Assembly (NCBI GenBank): GCA_001940925.1
Contig: MSGZ01000021.1
Coordinates: 26,999 to 90,998 of the forward strand
Source of the DNA: Ruminococcus sp. Phil11
GTDB lineage: Bacteria > Bacillota > Clostridia > Oscillospirales > Ruminococcaceae
Direction of reading: 5' to 3'
DNA: 64,000 nucleotides
The position numbers and the translations under genes were made by a program. Position 1 is the stretch's first letter; every line of letters begins with the position of its first letter. This document shows, piece by piece, positions 37,981 to 45,495 of this stretch. The notes under the pieces are model-generated. The model saw only the letters and a list, made by a program, of their open reading frames with translations. It was not told the origin of the DNA and did no database searches.

Positions 37981-38049
37981 CACTTTGTTACTGTTCAATT
38001 TGAGACACAGTGAGTCTCGAATTTGAAAAAGGATATACCACCGGTTTAC

Positions 38050-38078
38050 TTGACATTTCCGGAAAGGTATGCTATAAT
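38050..38078 (+). promoter_or_regulatory. Promoter of tRNA unit 1
   Basis: TTGACA - 17 nt - TATAAT with TG extended -10. Confidence 0.85.
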
Positions 38079-38135
38079 GTGCTCAACGCAGGGCAAACAG
38101 CCCGCGAAATTCTGACTAACGAAAGGGTGAAAACA

Positions 38136-38276
38136 ATGAAAGCAATCATGAACAACGCAGTGTGCCTGTTTAGTTTTGAATACCAGCAGTTCTGCTATTT
38201 TCTCCAGCAAGAAAATGGTGCCTTTGTGCTGCACGCAAAACATACAGGTGTTTGTTCAGCTTCCCTGACAGGGTGA
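38136..38276 (+). CDS. 46-aa leader peptide, unit 1 (Phe-rich)
   Basis: MKAIMNNAVCLFSFEYQQFCYFLQQENGAFVLHAKHTGVCSASLTG; same length and partly similar to unit 2/3 leaders (MNN..EY..VLH). Confidence 0.7.
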   Translation: MKAIMNNAVCLFSFEYQQFCYFLQQENGAFVLHAKHTGVCSASLTG

Positions 38277-38321
38277 GCATAGATTGTGTTTCATTGTGAA
38301 CCATCTTCTGATAGAACAAAG

Positions 38322-38361
38322 CCGTCTGTGTGCAGTATCGAAAGCACGCAGACGGTTTTTT
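38322..38361 (+). terminator. Attenuator terminator, unit 1
   Basis: CCGTCTGTGTGC-loop-GCACGCAGACGG followed by TTTTTT. Confidence 0.85.
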
Positions 38362-38388
38362 GTATTCTGTCAGAAAGGTGGTATTTTT

Positions 38389-38619
38389 ATGTCTTCCGAT
38401 ACGCCGACGATCAACATGGCCGCGACCGGCGCAAACATCAAGGCGCTGATCAAAAACAAAGGGCTCAAGGTTGCCGATGTGCAAATCAGATGCGGCTTCA
38501 ACACGCCGCAGGCGATCTTCAAATGGATGCGCGGCGATGCGATGCCCACGATCGACAATATGGTGATTCTTGCGCATCTGCTCGATGTGACCATTGACAA
38601 GATCATCATTCTCAATTAA
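38389..38619 (+). CDS. Small XRE-like HTH protein (unit 1)
   Basis: NIKALIKNKGLKVADVQIRCGFNTPQAIFKWMRGDAMPTIDNMVILAHLLDVTIDKII. Confidence 0.85.
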   Translation: MSSDTPTINMAATGANIKALIKNKGLKVADVQIRCGFNTPQAIFKWMRGDAMPTIDNMVILAHLLDVTIDKIIILN

Positions 38620-38647
38620 AACGCTCCGCCCGATTTCGGGCGGGGAA

Positions 38648-38676
38648 TGATTCCGCTTCGTCTAACAGGCAGGACA
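38648..38676 (+). pseudogene. 5' half of a tRNA-Glu/Gln-like gene, truncated by palindromic element
   Basis: GATTCCGCTTCGTCTAACAGGCAGGACA then GCGGGCAGTGCCCGC; compare intact tRNA-Glu GGCCGCATCGTCTAATGGTCAGGACA. Confidence 0.55.
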
Positions 38677-38691
38677 GCGGGCAGTGCCCGC
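38677..38691. repeat. Palindromic REP-like core GCGGGCAGTGCCCGC
   Basis: Perfect inverted repeat; further copies at 38851, 43221 and a variant at 7444. Confidence 0.75.
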
Positions 38692-38744
38692 CTCCATTGA
38701 TCTAAAGCCCGCCGGAAAACTCTGTCGTATCAGAAATGAAATAT

Positions 38745-38820
38745 GCCTCTGTAGCTCAGTTGGTAGAGCACTGGTTTGAAGCACCAGTTGTCGCAAGTTC
38801 GATTCTTGCCGGAGGCACCA
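38745..38820 (+). tRNA. tRNA-Phe(GAA) with encoded CCA
   Basis: GCCTCTG/CGGAGGC acceptor, CTGGT-TTGAAGC-ACCAG anticodon arm, GCAAG-TTCGATT-CTTGC T-arm, ACCA. Confidence 0.92.
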
Positions 38821-38823
38821 AAT

Positions 38824-38850
38824 GATTCCGTTTCGTCTAATGGCAGGACA
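38824..38850 (+). pseudogene. Second truncated tRNA-Glu/Gln-like 5' half
   Basis: GATTCCGTTTCGTCTAATGGCAGGACA then GCGGGCAGTGCCCGC. Confidence 0.55.
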
Positions 38851-38865
38851 GCGGGCAGTGCCCGC
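38851..38865. repeat. REP-like palindrome GCGGGCAGTGCCCGC
   Basis: Identical to 38677 and 43221 copies. Confidence 0.75.
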
Positions 38866-38950
38866 GGCCAATTTCTAAAGTTCTCCGGAAGCGAAGAAAA
38901 GCAGAACAATATGGGCAGGTAAGCACCCAAAGCATATACCACCGGTTTAC

Positions 38951-38979
38951 TTGATTTATCCGCTCGTGTATGCTATAAT
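38951..38979 (+). promoter_or_regulatory. Promoter of tRNA unit 2
   Basis: TTGATT - 17 nt - TATAAT; the flanks match units 1 and 3. Confidence 0.7.
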
Positions 38980-39053
38980 GCAATCAACATCAGACAGGGG
39001 CAGCCGGAAACAGGCTGCTGCGTTGAGATCTTATTTGAAAGGAGTTGCCGAAA

Positions 39054-39194
39054 ATGACACGTTTCGCTATGAACAATCTGTACAGCCACAGTGAATATTA
39101 CCTCCTGAGCCTCTATCTGGAAGAGACTCTGATTGTGCTGCATACAGATCGTAGTGAATGTGTCGGAACCGCCGGCATGCGCATTTCAGGATAG
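39054..39194 (+). CDS. 46-aa leader peptide, unit 2 (Leu/Tyr-rich)
   Basis: MTRFAMNNLYSHSEYYLLSLYLEETLIVLHTDRSECVGTAGMRISG with upstream AAAGGAG; identical to the unit 3 ORF by eye. Confidence 0.7.
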   Translation: MTRFAMNNLYSHSEYYLLSLYLEETLIVLHTDRSECVGTAGMRISG

Positions 39195-39222
39195 CCTTTT
39201 TGTATGATATCCCTGAAACGAA

Positions 39223-39258
39223 ACACCGTCTGTATGCAGCGATACAGATGGTGTTTTT
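39223..39258 (+). terminator. Attenuator terminator, unit 2
   Basis: ACACCGTCTGTAT-gcagcg-ATACAGATGGTGT plus TTTTT. Confidence 0.85.
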
Positions 39259-39263
39259 GTTAT

Positions 39264-39336
39264 GTCCGTGTGATGGAATGGAATACATACTTGCCTCAGA
39301 CACAAGGTTTTGGGAGTTCGAATCTCCCCGCGGACA
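39264..39336 (+). tRNA. tRNA-Leu(CAG)-like, 73 nt, 5-nt variable loop
   Basis: GTCCGTG/CGCGGAC acceptor, CTTGC-CTCAGAC-ACAAG (one mismatch), gtttt variable loop, GGGAG-TTCGAAT-CTCCC. Confidence 0.75.
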
Positions 39337-39340
39337 CTTT

Positions 39341-39413
39341 GCAGGATTGATGGAACGGAATACATGACAGCCTCAAAAGCTGTATTTTAAGGGTTCAAAT
39401 CCCTTATCCTGCA
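39341..39413 (+). tRNA. tRNA-Leu(CAA)-like, 73 nt, 5-nt variable loop
   Basis: GCAGGAT/ATCCTGC, ACAGC-CTCAAAA-GCTGT, AAGGG-TTCAAAT-CCCTT. Confidence 0.8.
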
Positions 39414-39576
39414 TGATTGATAACCCAATTAACTCTCGAATTTATCTGCTTGTCTAAATGCCAATCTGCCGCGTCAGAAATCCTTGCCTTGCGTCAGCAA
39501 GGCGGTGGCTTTCTTCCTTGCATATTGACATTTATACTGCGCATCTAATATTCAAGAGTTAATTGGAACATCAATA
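39414..39576. repeat. MITE-like imperfect inverted-repeat insertion between two tRNA genes
   Basis: Ends CCAATTAACTCTCGAAT / ATTCAAGAGTTAATTGG; absent at the equivalent position of unit 3 (42801-42803). Confidence 0.7.
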
Positions 39577-39650
39577 GCTCTTGTAGCCCAAATGGCAGAG
39601 GCAGCGGATTTAAACCCCGTTAAGTATGAGTTCGACTCTCATCAGGAGCA
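39577..39650 (+). tRNA. tRNA-Leu(UAA)-like, short variable loop
   Basis: GCTCTTG/CAGGAGC, loop TTTAAAC, ATGAG-TTCGACT-CTCAT; anticodon stem imperfect in this copy. Confidence 0.7.
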
Positions 39651-39682
39651 TCAGGGATATGACAAGAAAGGAGATGTTTTCC

Positions 39683-39907
39683 ATGCCGATTATTGATGTT
39701 GCAGCGACCGGTGCGAATATCAAATCCATGATGCGCACGAAAGGTTTTAAGGTGTCTGATGTTCAGGCGCGCTGCGGATTCAATACGCCGCAGGCGATTT
39801 TCAAATGGATGCGCGGCGATTCTGTGCCGACCATCGACAATATGATTATCATTGCAGATATGTTTGGCGTAACGATTGACCAGATCGTTGTCACCAAAAG
39901 AATCTGA
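39683..39907 (+). CDS. Small XRE-like HTH protein (unit 2)
   Basis: MPIIDVAATGANIKSMMRTKGFKVSDVQARCGFNTPQAIFKWMRGDSVPTIDNMIIIADMFGVTIDQIVVTKRI. Confidence 0.85.
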   Translation: MPIIDVAATGANIKSMMRTKGFKVSDVQARCGFNTPQAIFKWMRGDSVPTIDNMIIIADMFGVTIDQIVVTKRI

Positions 39908-39926
39908 CTGCTTGAAGCAGTTAAAT

Positions 39927-39998
39927 GGCCGCATCGTCTAATGGTCAGGATGCTGGATTCTCATTCCGGCGATACGGGTTCAAGTCCCGCTGCGGTTA
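39927..39998 (+). tRNA. tRNA-Glu(CUC)
   Basis: GGCCGCA/TGCGGTT acceptor with G-U pairs, CTGGA-TTCTCAT-TCCGG, GGGTTCAAGTCCC. Confidence 0.8.
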
Positions 39999-40003
39999 TC
40001 AAT

Positions 40004-40076
40004 GTCCGTGTGGTGGAATGGCAGACACACCCGGCTAAGAACCGGCACACTGAGGGTTCGACTCCCTCCACGGATA
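40004..40076 (+). tRNA. tRNA-Leu(AAG)-like, short variable loop
   Basis: GTCCGTG/CACGGAT, loop CTAAGAA, GAGGG-TTCGACT-CCCTC. Confidence 0.78.
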
Positions 40077-40080
40077 CTAA

Positions 40081-40119
40081 TGGCGGATTCGTCTAATCGG
40101 TCAGGACAAGAGGCTTTCA
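40081..40119 (+). pseudogene. Truncated tRNA-Glu-like 5' part fused to an ATPase fragment
   Basis: TGGCGGATTCGTCTAATCGGTCAGGACAAGAGGCTTTCAA followed directly by an ORF. Confidence 0.5.
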
Positions 40120-40554
40120 ATGGACGATGATCGGTTCAAATGTTATCTTATGGATACCGGCTTGCTCATCAACCTGAGCTTCGGTGACGGCAGTTATATG
40201 GACAACGATTTTTACAGGGCAATCCTGACCGACCGCCTGCATATCAATGAGGGAATGTTCGTAGAGAATGTCATCGCGCAATGCCTCCGTACAAACGGGC
40301 ACAAGGTCATTTTCTATGTCGAGTATGACAAGCAGGGGAAAATGGCAATGGAGATTGATTTCCTGATTCGGATTGACAGGAAGATCGTTCCGATTGAAGC
40401 GAAATCCGGCAAACAGTATACAACCAAATCGCTGCTCAAGTTCAAGGAGAAGTTCACCAACAAAGTCGGCAGACAGTATGTGCTGCATGAGGGTGATCTC
40501 CGCGTCGAGGGCGAGGTTGTGTATCTGCCATATTATATGGCTGCGATCCTGTGA
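40120..40554 (+). pseudogene. C-terminal fragment of an AAA ATPase with DUF4143-like domain
   Basis: KCYLMDTGLLINLSF...NEGMFVENVIAQCLRTNGHKVIFYVEYDKQGKMAMEIDFLI...VPIEAKSGKQYTTKSLLKFKEKF; no ATPase N-terminus. Confidence 0.75.
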
Positions 40555-40658: not shown

Positions 40659-40702
40659 TTGGACACTATTTGGACACTATTTGGACACTATTTGGACACT
40701 AC
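40659..40702 (+). repeat. Four tandem copies of the 11-mer TTGGACACTAT
   Basis: Perfect 11-bp periodicity, last copy ending AC; same motif twice at 17567. Confidence 0.9.
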
Positions 40703-40908
40703 GGAGAAATTTGGACACAAAGCTGCGCGCTTTTTGAGCGAACAACGAGCCGGATTTTTGAGATTTTTAGGAAATTCTTGCGAAAATAGCGTTTGATGAA
40801 AATAGAGAAAATTGAGTTTGCTTTTTGTGCATGATGCTAGGATGCGAATTGTGGCGGATTGTGGTATAATAAAGATAGTCCAATTCCGGTTTGCAAGGAG
40901 GTTATCAT

Positions 40909-41826
40909 ATGGCAGTACCAAAATATAGTGAATTCATGCCGTCCATTATTCGCTGCTTAGGCGATGGAGAAACATATACTCTCAGACAAGTCGTTGACTA
41001 TTGCGCAGCAGAATTTCAATTATCAGATGATGATAAAGAGGAAACTCTAGCAAGCGGTCAGAATACATTGCTGAATCGTGTTAGCTGGGCGAAAACCTAC
41101 CTGAAAAAAGCCGGATTGATTGAGAGTCCTAAACGAGCCAGCTTTTGTCTAACCGATGCAGGACGAAAAGCATTAAAGCAGGGAGCGGATTGCGTTACTT
41201 TACAATACCTGGAACAGTTTGAATCTTTCACTGCTTTTCACGGAAAGGCATCTGCGGGCAGCACTGATGGGAGCGATGTGACAGTTATTCAGACGCAAAG
41301 TCCGCAGGAGCAGATTGAGTCTGCTTTGAATGAACTGAATGAGGAACTTGCCAGCGATCTAATGACGGAGATTATGAAAATCTCTCCGTTTGAATTTGAG
41401 CACCTTGTTGTCAAACTACTGATAAAAATGGGGTACGGAAAACCAAGTGAAAATAAGGATGCTGTCACACCGAAATCCGGCGATGAGGGAATTGACGGTG
41501 TAGTCAGCGCGGACAAGTTTGGATTTGATTCCATCTATATACAGGCAAAACAATGGAAATCGGACAGCACTGTGAGCAGACCGGAGATTCAGAAGTTTTT
41601 GGGAGCACTTGCAGGACAAGGTGCATCAAAGGGTATCTTTATTACGACAGCCAAGTTTTCAAAGGAAGCCGAAGCCTATGCTGCCAAACAGCTTCATACG
41701 AAAATTGTACTGGTCGATGGGATTCAGCTTGCTAAGCTGATGATTGAATACGATCTGGGCGTGTCAACGGCGGCTACATATCAGGTTAAGCGGATTGATT
41801 CTGATTTCTTTAGCGATGATGTATAA
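40909..41826 (+). CDS. Mrr-like restriction endonuclease
   Basis: N-terminal winged helix; Mrr catalytic core FEFEHLVVKLLIKMGY...GDEGIDGVV...IYIQAKQW. Confidence 0.9.
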   Translation: MAVPKYSEFMPSIIRCLGDGETYTLRQVVDYCAAEFQLSDDDKEETLASGQNTLLNRVSWAKTYLKKAGLIESPKRASFCLTDAGRKALKQGADCVTLQYLEQFESFTAFHGKASAGSTDGSDVTVIQTQSPQEQIESALNELNEELASDLMTEIMKISPFEFEHLVVKLLIKMGYGKPSENKDAVTPKSGDEGIDGVVSADKFGFDSIYIQAKQWKSDSTVSRPEIQKFLGALAGQGASKGIFITTAKFSKEAEAYAAKQLHTKIVLVDGIQLAKLMIEYDLGVSTAATYQVKRIDSDFFSDDV

Positions 41827-42270: not shown

Positions 42271-42333
42271 GTTACTGTTCAATTTGAGACATAGTGTGTC
42301 TTAAATTAGAAAAAGAATATACCACCGGTTTAC

Positions 42334-42362
42334 TTGACATTTCCGCTCGGGTATGCTATAAT
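42334..42362 (+). promoter_or_regulatory. Promoter of tRNA unit 3
   Basis: TTGACA - 17 nt - TATAAT with TG extended -10. Confidence 0.85.
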
Positions 42363-42438
42363 GCAATCAACATCAGACATGGGCAGCCGGAAACCGGCTG
42401 CTGCGCTGAATCATCTATTATGAAAGGAGATGCCGAAA

Positions 42439-42579
42439 ATGACACGTTTCGCTATGAACAATCTGTACAGCCACAGTGAATATTACCTCCTGAGCCTCTA
42501 TCTGGAAGAGACTCTGATTGTGCTGCATACAGATCGTAGTGAATGTGTCGGAACCGCCGGCATGCGCATTTCAGGATAG
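42439..42579 (+). CDS. 46-aa leader peptide, unit 3 (Leu/Tyr-rich)
   Basis: Same peptide as unit 2; AAAGGAG upstream. Confidence 0.7.
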   Translation: MTRFAMNNLYSHSEYYLLSLYLEETLIVLHTDRSECVGTAGMRISG

Positions 42580-42607
42580 CCTTTTTGTATGATATCCCTG
42601 AAACGAA

Positions 42608-42643
42608 ACACCGTCTGTATGCAGCGATACAGGCGGTGTTTTT
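42608..42643 (+). terminator. Attenuator terminator, unit 3
   Basis: ACACCGTCTGTAT-gcagcg-ATACAGGCGGTGT plus TTTT. Confidence 0.85.
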
Positions 42644-42648
42644 ATTAT

Positions 42649-42721
42649 GTCCGTGTGATGGAATGGAATACATACTTGCCTCAGACACAAGGTTTTGGGA
42701 GTTCGAATCTCCCCGCGGACA
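42649..42721 (+). tRNA. tRNA-Leu(CAG)-like, short variable loop
   Basis: Same sequence as 39264-39336. Confidence 0.75.
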
Positions 42722-42727
42722 TTTTTA

Positions 42728-42800
42728 GCAGGATTGATGGAACGGAATACATGACAGCCTCAAAAGCTGTATTCTAAGGGTTCAAATCCCTTATCCTGCA
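42728..42800 (+). tRNA. tRNA-Leu(CAA)-like, short variable loop
   Basis: Near-identical to 39341-39413. Confidence 0.8.
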
Positions 42801-42803
42801 TTT

Positions 42804-42876
42804 GCTCTTGTAGCCCAATGGAAGAGGCAGCGGATTTAAACTCCGCGCAGTATGAGTTCGACTCTCATCAGGAGCA
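42804..42876 (+). tRNA. tRNA-Leu(UAA)-like, short variable loop
   Basis: GCTCTTG/CAGGAGC, GCGGA-TTTAAAC-TCCGC perfect stem, ATGAG-TTCGACT-CTCAT. Confidence 0.82.
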
Positions 42877-42908
42877 TCAGGGATATTACAGGAAAGGAGA
42901 TGTTTACA

Positions 42909-43133
42909 ATGCCAATTATTGATGTAGCTGCAACCGGTGCGAATATCAAATCCATGATGCGCACGAAAGGCTTTAAGGTTGCTGATGTGCAGGCAGCGTG
43001 CGGATTTAATACCCCGCAGGCGATCTTCAAATGGATGCGCGGCGATTCTGTGCCGACCATCGACAACATGATTATTATTGCAGATATGTTTGGTGTGACG
43101 ATCGATCAGATCGTTGTGATCAAAAGAATCTGA
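42909..43133 (+). CDS. Small XRE-like HTH protein (unit 3)
   Basis: MPIIDVAATGANIKSMMRTKGFKVADVQAACGFNTPQAIFKWMRGDSVPTIDNMIIIADMFGVTIDQIVVIKRI. Confidence 0.85.
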   Translation: MPIIDVAATGANIKSMMRTKGFKVADVQAACGFNTPQAIFKWMRGDSVPTIDNMIIIADMFGVTIDQIVVIKRI

Positions 43134-43151
43134 CTGCTTCGGCAGTCACAG

Positions 43152-43223
43152 GGCCGCATCGTCTAATGGTCAGGACACCGGATTCTCAATCCGGCGATAC
43201 GGGTTCAAGTCCCGCTGCGGGCG
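43152..43223 (+). tRNA. tRNA-Glu(CUC)
   Basis: GGCCGCA/TGCGGGC, CCGGA-TTCTCAA-TCCGG. Confidence 0.8.
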
Positions 43224-43235
43224 GGCAGTGCCCGC
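43221..43235. repeat. REP-like palindrome abutting tRNA-Glu 3' end
   Basis: GCGGGCAGTGCCCGC. Confidence 0.75.
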
Positions 43236-43318
43236 AGCCGATTTTATTCTCCGGCAGCGATACTTGTTATTGTAATTGGTATCGCTCCTGAGAGATGATT
43301 CATTATCTTTTATAATAT

Positions 43319-43393
43319 GTCCGTGTGATGGAATTTGGAATACATACTTGGCTAAGAACCAGGGTTTTGGGAGTTCGAGTCTCCCCACGGATA
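43319..43393 (+). tRNA. tRNA-Leu(AAG)-like, short variable loop
   Basis: GTCCGTG/CACGGAT, CTTGG-CTAAGAA-CCAGG, gtttt, GGGAG-TTCGAGT-CTCCC. Confidence 0.8.
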
Positions 43394-43401
43394 CTCAATA
43401 T

Positions 43402-43485
43402 GGGCAAGTACGCATAGCGGCGATTGCAGCGGACTGTAAATCCGTCACGTTAGATACACCGCAGGTTCGATTCCTGCCTTGCCCA
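43402..43485 (+). tRNA. tRNA-Tyr(GUA), class II with long variable arm
   Basis: GGGCAAG/CTTGCCC, loop CTGTAAA, GCAGG-TTCGATT-CCTGC. Confidence 0.92.
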
Positions 43486-43584
43486 TCGTCTGCGCCCGCC
43501 TCCAATTTTATTCTCAAAGAGCGATACTTGTCATTTTGACCGGTACCGCTCCGAAGGGAATCATTACTTTCATTATTCATTATT

Positions 43585-43720: not shown

Positions 43721-44302
43721 TTACTTTGAAAGCAAATAAACCAAAATAACAATTGATACTGATAACATTAGCATTATTATAAACGCGCAAAAACAACCGG
43801 AAGATTGTTTAACATTTGTTTTCTGATGCATAGGCTGCTCGTAATAAACAGGTTTTTTCTGTCGGGAATCATGACTTGGTTCCTGCTGCATGGGCTGCTG
43901 CGAAGGGGATACTGCTCGCGGAACCTGCTGCGGTCTGTTTTCAAGTTGCCGCTTTTCTGCGCGTTCAGAAACTGCTTTTATTTCCATTTTTCTCAGCATC
44001 GCAAGCGGATCGTTGGTAGAGAACAGCCTTTTATAGAAATCATCAAGCCATTCGTAATCATCGGACGAGCAAATATCCGAATCATAGCTGACTTCGTGTG
44101 CAAGTTGATTTCTTATCCAGCGAACATGTTTAAGGTTATCATAATCACTTTTCCAGCCTTGTACGCTGCTGCTTCCCTTATAATAGCACGATTCCATTGA
44201 ACGTATGTATTCTGAAACACCTTCAGAAGAAGAATAGGCATCTTTCATAAAACGGTCTGTACGTTTATACAGATCCATAAAATCGATATTCAAATCACGC
44301 AT
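43721..44302 (-). CDS. Hypothetical protein with C-terminal transmembrane anchor
   Basis: VRWIRNQLAHEVSYDS...; C-terminal hydrophobic FIIMLMLSVSIVILVYLL. Confidence 0.6.
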   Translation of the reverse strand: MRDLNIDFMDLYKRTDRFMKDAYSSSEGVSEYIRSMESCYYKGSSSVQGWKSDYDNLKHVRWIRNQLAHEVSYDSDICSSDDYEWLDDFYKRLFSTNDPLAMLRKMEIKAVSERAEKRQLENRPQQVPRAVSPSQQPMQQEPSHDSRQKKPVYYEQPMHQKTNVKQSSGCFCAFIIMLMLSVSIVILVYLLSK

Positions 44303-44357: not shown

Positions 44358-45131
44358 TCAGCGGATTCGTTCCAGTATCAGTTTGATGTGGGTATGATCC
44401 GTGAGCGTAAAGCCGAAATCCTTGCGGATCTGCCATGCGGTGTAAGGAAGCGTGAACACATCCTTGTATACAAGCCTGTATGAACCGGGGATCCGCTTCA
44501 TCAGATCCTCCGTATAAACAGGGAAGTAGTTTTCATGAACTTCCCGTTCCCAGTTCTGCGTATATTTGTATTTCAGCAGAAAATGCACAAGCTGGCGCTG
44601 CGTCTTGATCCTGCCCCAGACATTCTCATAGCTTTCCAGCCATTCTGCGCAGCTGCTGTGCCTGACTGCGGCAAGCTGATCTGTGCGGACAGGAATATCC
44701 TCCGCCCGTGAATACATCATGTCGCGGATCGTGACATATTGAAAACCGCTCCCGAAAACTCTGTCCCAGAAGATATCAATATCCTTTTTGCTGCAATAGG
44801 AATAAACCTCATGTACCGTACTGGAAATATTGATCAGGCTCTCTGCAAACGGAATGCTGATCCGGTTCCAGTCGTCAAAGAACTGTGCGTCCGGAACATT
44901 TTTGCGTGCGGCTTCGATCATTTCGGGGCTGATATCATAGCCGATATATTCATATTCGGGAAACATCGGCTTCATAGCCTTGATCAGTTCTCCGTTTGCA
45001 CAGCCGAAATCAAGGACATACCGGAACGGTTCAAAGACCTTATCCATGAAAAACATCTTATCCAGTATGGATCGCTGCATTCTCGTCAGGTAGATATTCA
45101 GATCGGATATCCGGTTCATATCTGTATCCAT
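44358..45131 (-). CDS. SAM-dependent methyltransferase
   Basis: VLDFGCANGELIKAMKPMFPEYEYIGYDISPEMIEAARKN. Confidence 0.85.
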   Translation of the reverse strand: MDTDMNRISDLNIYLTRMQRSILDKMFFMDKVFEPFRYVLDFGCANGELIKAMKPMFPEYEYIGYDISPEMIEAARKNVPDAQFFDDWNRISIPFAESLINISSTVHEVYSYCSKKDIDIFWDRVFGSGFQYVTIRDMMYSRAEDIPVRTDQLAAVRHSSCAEWLESYENVWGRIKTQRQLVHFLLKYKYTQNWEREVHENYFPVYTEDLMKRIPGSYRLVYKDVFTLPYTAWQIRKDFGFTLTDHTHIKLILERIR

Positions 45132-45239
45132 AGCATGGTTCCTCCGTTTGATTCAAATGCCGGGCAAGTATCATAGATACAGTATAGCAGAATCATTGCG
45201 GAATGTCAATCCGTTTCAGAAACCCGTGTCCTTATTTAT

Positions 45240-45332
45240 GGTCGCATAAGCCTAACAGGCAAGGCAGCAGTTTGCTAAACTGTGAGTAGCCGTGTATTCC
45301 GCGGTGTCCGGGTTCGACTCCCGGTGTGACCG
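45240..45332 (+). tRNA. tRNA-Ser(GCU)
   Basis: GGTCGCA/TGTGACC, loop TTGCTAA, long variable arm, CCGGG-TTCGACT-CCCGG. Confidence 0.92.
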
Positions 45333-45495
45333 TTCATATAAAAGCTGAGCCGGTGTCGGATAAGCACCGGCCGTTTTTTGCCGCAAGGACGCTTTCGCCG
45401 GAGCGGGATCATCACGGCAGAGCCGGCAGCGTGCGCGCTTTTGTCGTAAGTGCCGATAAACATTCGCGCTTTCAGGAAAAGATTGTGCTGTATCG

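Follow-up and report, generated by a model that had tools for sequence, protein, structure and literature searches.

Leader peptides that match downstream tRNA genes point to ribosome-mediated attenuation of chromosomal tRNA arrays in Ruminococcus

What controls the tRNA genes clustered in this stretch of Ruminococcus DNA, and to what signal would they answer? Ribosome-mediated attenuation is well established in the E. coli trp, his, leu, thr, ilv, pheA and pheST operons; to our knowledge, the cases described concern the making or use of amino acids and not tRNA genes. An earlier note had read positions 39054-39258 as a leader-peptide attenuator ahead of tRNA-Leu genes, and this is still the best supported reading, strengthened by comparative data. 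In the window, that is, the whole 64-kb stretch that was analysed, we found three attenuator units (unit 1, 38034-38852; unit 2, 38935-40119; unit 3, 42318-43487). Very probably, all three are ribosome-mediated transcription attenuators that control tRNA genes, together with an HTH regulator, through the decodability of those tRNAs' codons. Unit 2, to which the region first noted belongs, comprises:

38935-38950, plus strand: candidate operator TATACCACCGGTTTAC
38951-38979, plus strand: promoter TTGATT-17-TATAAT with TGn extended -10
39054-39194, plus strand: leader peptide with Leu/Tyr/Ser/Glu/His, control codons at about 39081-39125
39056-39167, plus strand: predicted 1:2 hairpin whose loop contains the control codons, -39.8 kcal/mol
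39137-39149, plus strand: segment 2, the antiterminator 5' strand
39228-39240, plus strand: segment 3, the antiterminator 3' strand, inside the terminator 5' arm
39220-39258, plus strand: intrinsic terminator (3:4), -22.6 kcal/mol
39264-39337, plus strand: tRNA-Leu(CAG), short variable arm, A37
39340-39414, plus strand: tRNA-Leu(CAA), short variable arm
39577-39650, plus strand: tRNA-Leu(UAA), short variable arm
39683-39907, plus strand: XRE-type HTH protein, 74 aa
39926-40000, plus strand: tRNA-Glu(CTC)
40004-40077, plus strand: tRNA-Leu(AAG), short variable arm
40081-40119, plus strand: tRNA-Glu(TTC), 5' half only, ending at the anticodon

The architecture of unit 2 is of the trp type, with a 46-codon leader peptide, a 1:2 hairpin, a 2:3 antiterminator and a 3:4 terminator. 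The 11-bp pairing described previously, between CTGCATACAGA (39138-39148) and TCTGTATGCAG (39229-39239), was recovered at exactly these positions, and the full helix is 13 bp long, one of its pairs being G-U (GCTGCATACAGAT/GTCTGTATGCAGC, 39137-39149 with 39228-39240). The leader ORF (translation MTRFAMNNLYSHSEYYLLSLYLEETLIVLHTDRSECVGTAGMRISG) is preceded by the ribosome-binding site AAAGGAG, and we obtained the same count of 7 Leu codons (only CTG and CTC) and 4 Tyr codons in 46. The control codons end approximately 12-15 nt 5' of segment 2 (39123-39125 versus 39138). Downstream, the tRNA-Leu genes with anticodons CAG, CAA, UAA and AAG were found as reported, along with a tRNA-Glu(CTC) gene and the XRE-type HTH gene, which the earlier note did not list. 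A Watson-Crick run of at least 11 between the leader and the terminator 5' half was rare after shuffling of codon order (P=0.001) and after random synonymous recoding (P=0.033), and the leader folds more stably than its dinucleotide shuffles (z=-5.5). Stronger than these shuffling tests, as an argument that the pairing did not arise by chance, is the comparative evidence given below.

Computed folding of unit 2 is consistent with three mutually exclusive states. The 5' end of the leader base-pairs around segment 2 and loops out the control codons (1:2, -39.8 kcal/mol); when the 5' part was masked and segment 4 was absent, mimicking a stalled ribosome, the 2:3 pairing formed (-39.7 kcal/mol); and the 3:4 terminator amounts to -22.6 kcal/mol. 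Unit 1 behaved in the same way. In the full-length stalled state the minimum-energy fold is still the terminator; therefore, the switch must be kinetic, with 2:3 forming before segment 4 during transcription, as is likewise the case in known attenuators. Among relatives, leader 2 of the Lachnospiraceae NE2001 array (L182b) folds into all three states, and the 2:3 and terminator structures were found for leader 1 of that array (L182a) and for the type C leader L160. In 60 of 67 distinct leaders, segment 2 pairs with upstream leader RNA at a mean probability above 0.5, and the remaining 7 have a weak 1:2 pairing. Compared with dinucleotide shuffles, the complementarity was weak for several single units and gave a combined Fisher value of 1e-6 over 21 units that are not independent of one another. 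Computed structures and covariation together indicate mutually exclusive 1:2, 2:3 and 3:4 pairings with an intrinsic terminator.

Ribosome stalling and read-through themselves we infer as follows. A strong promoter would start transcription of the leader; if the leader is translated smoothly, or is not translated, segments 1 and 2 would re-pair, segment 3 would be free, and the 3:4 terminator would end transcription. Stalling at the control codons (in unit 2, about 39081-39125) would let the ribosome disrupt segment 1 without covering segment 2, and uncovered segment 2 would pair with segment 3, allowing the polymerase to enter the tRNA genes. If the leading edge of the ribosome lies ~14 nt ahead of the A site, a pause at any one of residues 10-24 in the unit 2 leader would open segment 1 and hold the ribosome just before segment 2. 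The new tRNAs would relieve the stall, so that the circuit would form a homeostatic loop.

The other two units of the window, and a tRNA gene further downstream, are as follows:

38034-38049, plus strand: unit 1 candidate operator TATACCACCGGTTTAC, abutting the -35 box on its upstream side
38050-38078, plus strand: unit 1 promoter TTGACA-17-TATAAT with TGn extended -10
38136-38276, plus strand: unit 1 leader peptide, rich in Phe/Gln/Cys/Tyr
38226-38237, plus strand: unit 1 segment 2, the antiterminator 5' strand
38327-38338, plus strand: unit 1 segment 3, inside the terminator 5' arm
38318-38362, plus strand: unit 1 intrinsic terminator, -25.6 kcal/mol
38389-38619, plus strand: unit 1 XRE-type HTH protein, 76 aa
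38651-38678, plus strand: unit 1 tRNA-Gln(CTG) remnant, its anticodon stem cut by GGGCAGTGCCCGC (by comparison with the tRNA-Gln of L099/L105)
38745-38820, plus strand: unit 1 tRNA-Phe(GAA)
38825-38852, plus strand: unit 1 tRNA-Gln(TTG) remnant, also cut by the GGGCAGTGCCCGC element
42318-42333, plus strand: unit 3 candidate operator
42334-42362, plus strand: unit 3 promoter TTGACA-17-TATAAT
42439-42579, plus strand: unit 3 leader peptide, identical in sequence to that of unit 2
42605-42643, plus strand: unit 3 terminator
42648-42878, plus strand: unit 3 tRNA-Leu(CAG), (CAA) and (UAA)
42909-43133, plus strand: unit 3 XRE-type HTH protein
43152-43487, plus strand: unit 3 tRNA-Glu(CTC), tRNA-Leu(AAG) and tRNA-Tyr(GTA)
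45239-45333, plus strand: tRNA-Ser(GCT), 95 nt, of the type of the array-ending tRNA-Ser of relatives

Unit 3 is a copy of unit 2 with tRNA-Tyr added, and the tRNA-Ser(GCT) gene is probably its displaced tail; genes for a DUF6548 protein and a methyltransferase (43721-44302 and 44358-45131, minus strand) separate the two. Several other elements lie in and between the units. The GGGCAGTGCCCGC palindrome occurs with similar flanks at 38679-38691, 38853-38865 and 43223-43235; it interrupts two tRNA-Gln genes at one identical position of the anticodon stem, the third copy follows the unit 3 tRNA-Glu, and the element resembles a small mobile repeat exploiting the anticodon stems of tRNAs. The ~160 bp between the unit 2 tRNA-Leu(CAA) and tRNA-Leu(UAA) genes (39415-39576) carry 26-nt inverted repeats that are 85% complementary, are MITE-like, and have no counterpart at that position in unit 3. 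Within 40081-40554 the truncated tRNA-Glu(TTC) is followed by a fragment of a DUF4143-type protein, adjoined by an 11-bp tandem repeat TTGGACACTAT (40659-40701), and a gene for an Mrr-type (type IV) restriction enzyme (40891-41826) lies between units 2 and 3.

Relatives of the HTH protein were found at 99 places in GTDB species genomes, of which 80 were kept; the hosts include Ruminococcus albus, R. flavefaciens, many Ruminococcus MAGs, Lachnospiraceae and Eubacterium ruminantium. Most of these loci contain a tRNA array. Many genomes of Ruminococcus and some of Lachnospiraceae carry homologous units, and the attenuator system is patchy in its distribution among relatives. Several loci end at contig edges and thus some arrays are incomplete; in addition, ARAGORN may overlook degenerate tRNAs. 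A leader scan that was blind to the HTH gene, and that required a terminator, an antiterminator and an ORF with a ribosome-binding site, found such a leader at ~65 places in related loci (most of the loci) and very few unrelated matches. Paralogous HTH proteins of another type (L151-L154, L156 and L157) had no such leader, and a search of ten genomes for the type C leader returned no copy beyond the known one. Across 32 distinct combinations of segments 2 and 3, 87.5% of positions were paired compared to 83.7 +/- 0.7% with permuted partners, and the 2:3 pairing covaries, with a T-A/C-G exchange at position 5 and a C-G pair at position 6 in L098. The pN/pS of 0.11 in the largest leader cluster indicates that the peptide itself is under coding selection.

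The codons of these leaders match the tRNAs that they precede, in three sets: Leu/Tyr/His/Glu/Ser, Phe/Gln/Cys/Trp/Asp, and Lys/Met/Gln/Phe/Asn/Ile/Arg. Over 27 leader clusters, the tRNAs of the same unit decode 50% of the control residues (27 +/- 3% permuted) and 99% of tRNA amino acids are present in the leader (67 +/- 5.5% permuted; p<5e-5), the match holding within type A (p=0.007 and 0.039) and type B (p=0.0003 and 0.0007); permuting clusters reduces shared ancestry without fully removing it, even within types, and does not amount to a full phylogenetic test. In type A, 4-7 Leu codons were present in 27 of 27 units with tRNA-Leu and 1-2 in 25 of 26 units without it. Serine codons follow the anticodon, being mainly AGY with tRNA-Ser(GCT) and TCA/TCG where tRNA-Ser(TGA) occurs. 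Individual leaders show the same correspondence: in R. flavefaciens, the leaders (YLYSEHYEESFYHESEE) are followed by tRNAs for Tyr, Glu, His and Ser and by none for Leu; tRNA-Leu comes after leaders such as SLSLSLELEE; tRNAs for Trp, Gln and Phe come after the leaders of L098 and L100, which contain W, Q and F (L100 also has Cys codons and tRNA-Cys); the D-rich leaders of L036 and L155 precede tRNA-Asp; and the L160 leader (Q, K, F, M) has tRNAs for Phe, Gln, Met and Lys downstream. The earlier proposal of Leu and Tyr as control codons therefore stands, but not for these two alone, since Ser (AGY), His and Glu codons also match tRNAs of this unit type. Likewise, tRNA-Leu was rightly named as a target, but the HTH gene is on the same transcript and related units add Tyr, His, Glu and Ser(GCT) tRNAs.

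In locus L182 of Lachnospiraceae NE2001, 25 tRNAs lie on the reverse strand under three leaders in series. Leader 1 is followed by tRNAs for Ala, Arg, Gly, Thr, Asp, Pro and Met; leader 2, whose control residues are MMRQFKQIQNIQFWCNIKNWII, is followed by those for Phe, Ile, Gln, Trp, Cys, Asn, Ile, Arg, Met, Lys and Lys, and 22 of its 22 control residues match its own tRNA set; after leader 3 come tRNAs for Leu, Glu, His, Ser and Tyr. An ORF with a ribosome-binding site, a pN/pS of 0.11 and codons that match the regulated tRNAs suggest the control-codon leader of a trp/his/leu-type attenuator. Our reading of the three units in the window thus draws on their sequence, architecture and conservation, on 2:3 covariation and coding selection, and on the match between codons and tRNAs.

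The array tRNAs are themselves unusual. In genome G000, ordinary tRNAs exist elsewhere for most array anticodons (Leu CAG/UAA/GAG/UAG, Phe, Tyr, Glu and Ser GCT), and the ordinary tRNA-Leu are class II molecules of 83-88 nt. The array tRNA-Leu that we listed are 73-84 nt with short variable arms, array Leu(CAG/TAG) and Pro(TGG) carry A37 where G37 is canonical, array tRNA-Phe mostly carry G37 where the ordinary ones have A37, and the anticodon loops of array Glu and Gln often end in AA, not AC. Differences in the anticodon loop from the host's own isoacceptors, as would be expected of a nuclease-resistant spare set, were both present and consistent. In the window, the tRNA-Leu genes at 39264-39414, 39577-39650 and 40004-40077 lack a long variable arm, and one has the anticodon AAG; A34 is rare in bacteria. 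Short-variable-arm tRNA-Leu and changes at position 37 are relevant to the specificity of synthetases and of tRNA modification.

Changes in the anticodon loop of phage tRNAs have been proposed to confer resistance to anticodon nucleases (PMC10264068). Because of this analogy, and because a second set exists, we favour tRNA loss rather than amino-acid starvation as the signal: functional tRNA might be lost, for example to anticodon nucleases, and the array may be a divergent spare set. More broadly, and tentatively, the system may be an inducible emergency supply in which stalling attenuators sense tRNA loss (by anticodon nucleases, phage or toxin) and release a divergent, cleavage-resistant second set of tRNAs; in some Lachnospiraceae, three in series appear to cover most amino acids, and the HTH protein would add control at a shared operator. 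The same loop could instead be a homeostat of codon supply, in which the codon demand of normal growth, and not damage, drives tRNA expression with growth rate. The loop is indeed formally homeostatic and the array tRNAs read ordinary codons, but ordinary tRNAs for most of these anticodons are already in the genome, simple dosage does not explain divergent tRNAs in which position 37 is consistently changed, and relatives have the system only patchily; we regard this explanation as unlikely.

Besides the tRNAs, most units encode an HTH protein of the XRE/Cro-C1 type (Pfam HTH_3), for which no sequence relative was found in the PDB at E<=0.01. All three promoters of the window are TTGACA-like with 17-bp spacing and TGnTATAAT, and TATACCACCGGTTTAC lies immediately 5' of each. 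The palindrome TATACCnnnGGTTTAC beside the -35 box is the candidate operator; the pattern TATACNNNNNGTWTACTT occurs three times in the whole 3.7 Mb genome, once per unit, and a variant (TAGCnTACAAAGCTAC-like) occurs in the second units of L036 and L040 and in L100. We infer from this placement that the palindrome is probably the operator of the HTH protein encoded with most units, and that the protein would act there. A wider regulon was considered and rejected, as the few matches to the operator pattern outside the units in 399 order-level and 394 class-level genomes were chance-like.

An HTH gene on the same transcript raises the alternative of classical amino-acid starvation sensing, in which the HTH regulator is the true target and the tRNA genes are merely co-transcribed. 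The HTH gene lies directly 3' of the terminator in unit 1 and several relatives, and five units (L083, L086, L097, L109 and L110) have a leader and an HTH gene without a tRNA nearby, so that tRNAs are not the sole target. Hidden or masked tRNAs do not account for the tRNA-less loci, which had no runs of N and where cmscan found tRNAs in 1 of 13. These five units retain both leader and operator, and thus their HTH proteins may act on units elsewhere in those genomes. Against the HTH gene as the target, the codons of a leader go with the tRNAs of its unit and not with the HTH gene, and units 2 and 3 place three tRNA-Leu genes before it. Furthermore, NE2001 has operator, leaders and large tRNA arrays with no HTH gene identified in the L182 array, its HTH copy lying elsewhere in the genome behind a leader of its own. 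Starvation sensing directed at the HTH gene is thus doubtful in our view.

Two further explanations have very little probability. Unusual tRNA-Leu with short variable arms could supply a non-ribosomal user of aminoacyl-tRNA (cell wall, lipid or peptide modification), making the array a biosynthetic accessory, but such a user would hardly need four Leu anticodons and many other amino acids matched to the leader, and around the units of the window we noticed no aminoacyl-tRNA ligase. A decaying tRNA cargo of mobile elements or phages, its hairpins due to chance, would fit the truncated tRNA remnants and insertions in the window, and tRNA arrays are known from phages and mobile elements, but the conserved operator, the coding selection on the leader and the codon match across genera argue against it, as do 2.9 million viral contigs that held no real HTH relatives (only three weak, partial matches), a result on which we also rejected a phage or prophage origin.

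The attenuators described here share with those of E. coli amino-acid and synthetase operons a leader peptide with control codons immediately 5' of segment 2, the 1:2, 2:3 and 3:4 hairpins and an intrinsic terminator. They differ in that the regulated genes are tRNAs and an HTH gene instead of genes for biosynthesis, transport or a synthetase, which makes them a variant and not a plain member of that class; that a single leader can contain codons for as many as 9 amino acids, in agreement with its tRNA set; that units can stand in series; and that the hosts found here are Ruminococcus and Lachnospiraceae. T-box riboswitches, too, read the charging of tRNA in Firmicutes and use a terminator to govern transcription, whereas here a translating ribosome would be the sensor and tRNA the output; a T-box or other known riboswitch was excluded by an Rfam scan (gathering thresholds and E<=5) that was credible for the tRNA family only. 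The tRNA array units of Firmicutes, mycobacteria and phages (PMC5966550, PMC6409571) are similarly dense chromosomal clusters of extra tRNAs, but here each array stands behind leader-peptide attenuators matched to its tRNAs, and we found no leader-peptide regulation of arrays in the abstracts of these two reports or in the other literature searched. Phage tRNAs that evade anticodon nucleases (PMC10264068, PMC11555353) likewise form a second set, in the former report with anticodon-loop changes relative to host tRNAs, whereas the present set is chromosomal, apparently inducible by shortage, and only putatively resistant. Our search, largely confined to the open-access literature, turned up no description of leader-peptide attenuators acting on tRNA genes. 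As far as we could find, then, the mechanism is known, and what is new is tRNA genes as its target, with several amino acids per leader in matched combination.

The leader codons name the tRNAs that they would control, making the circuit self-documenting and giving a prediction for each unit, in which a change of codon should change the signal. These rumen bacteria appear to make spare tRNAs only when their ribosomes are short of them. If the reading of the arrays as a spare set is true, it would show how bacteria can survive tRNA cleavage without importing phage tRNAs, and would provide a rationale for the chromosomal tRNA arrays of these Firmicutes.
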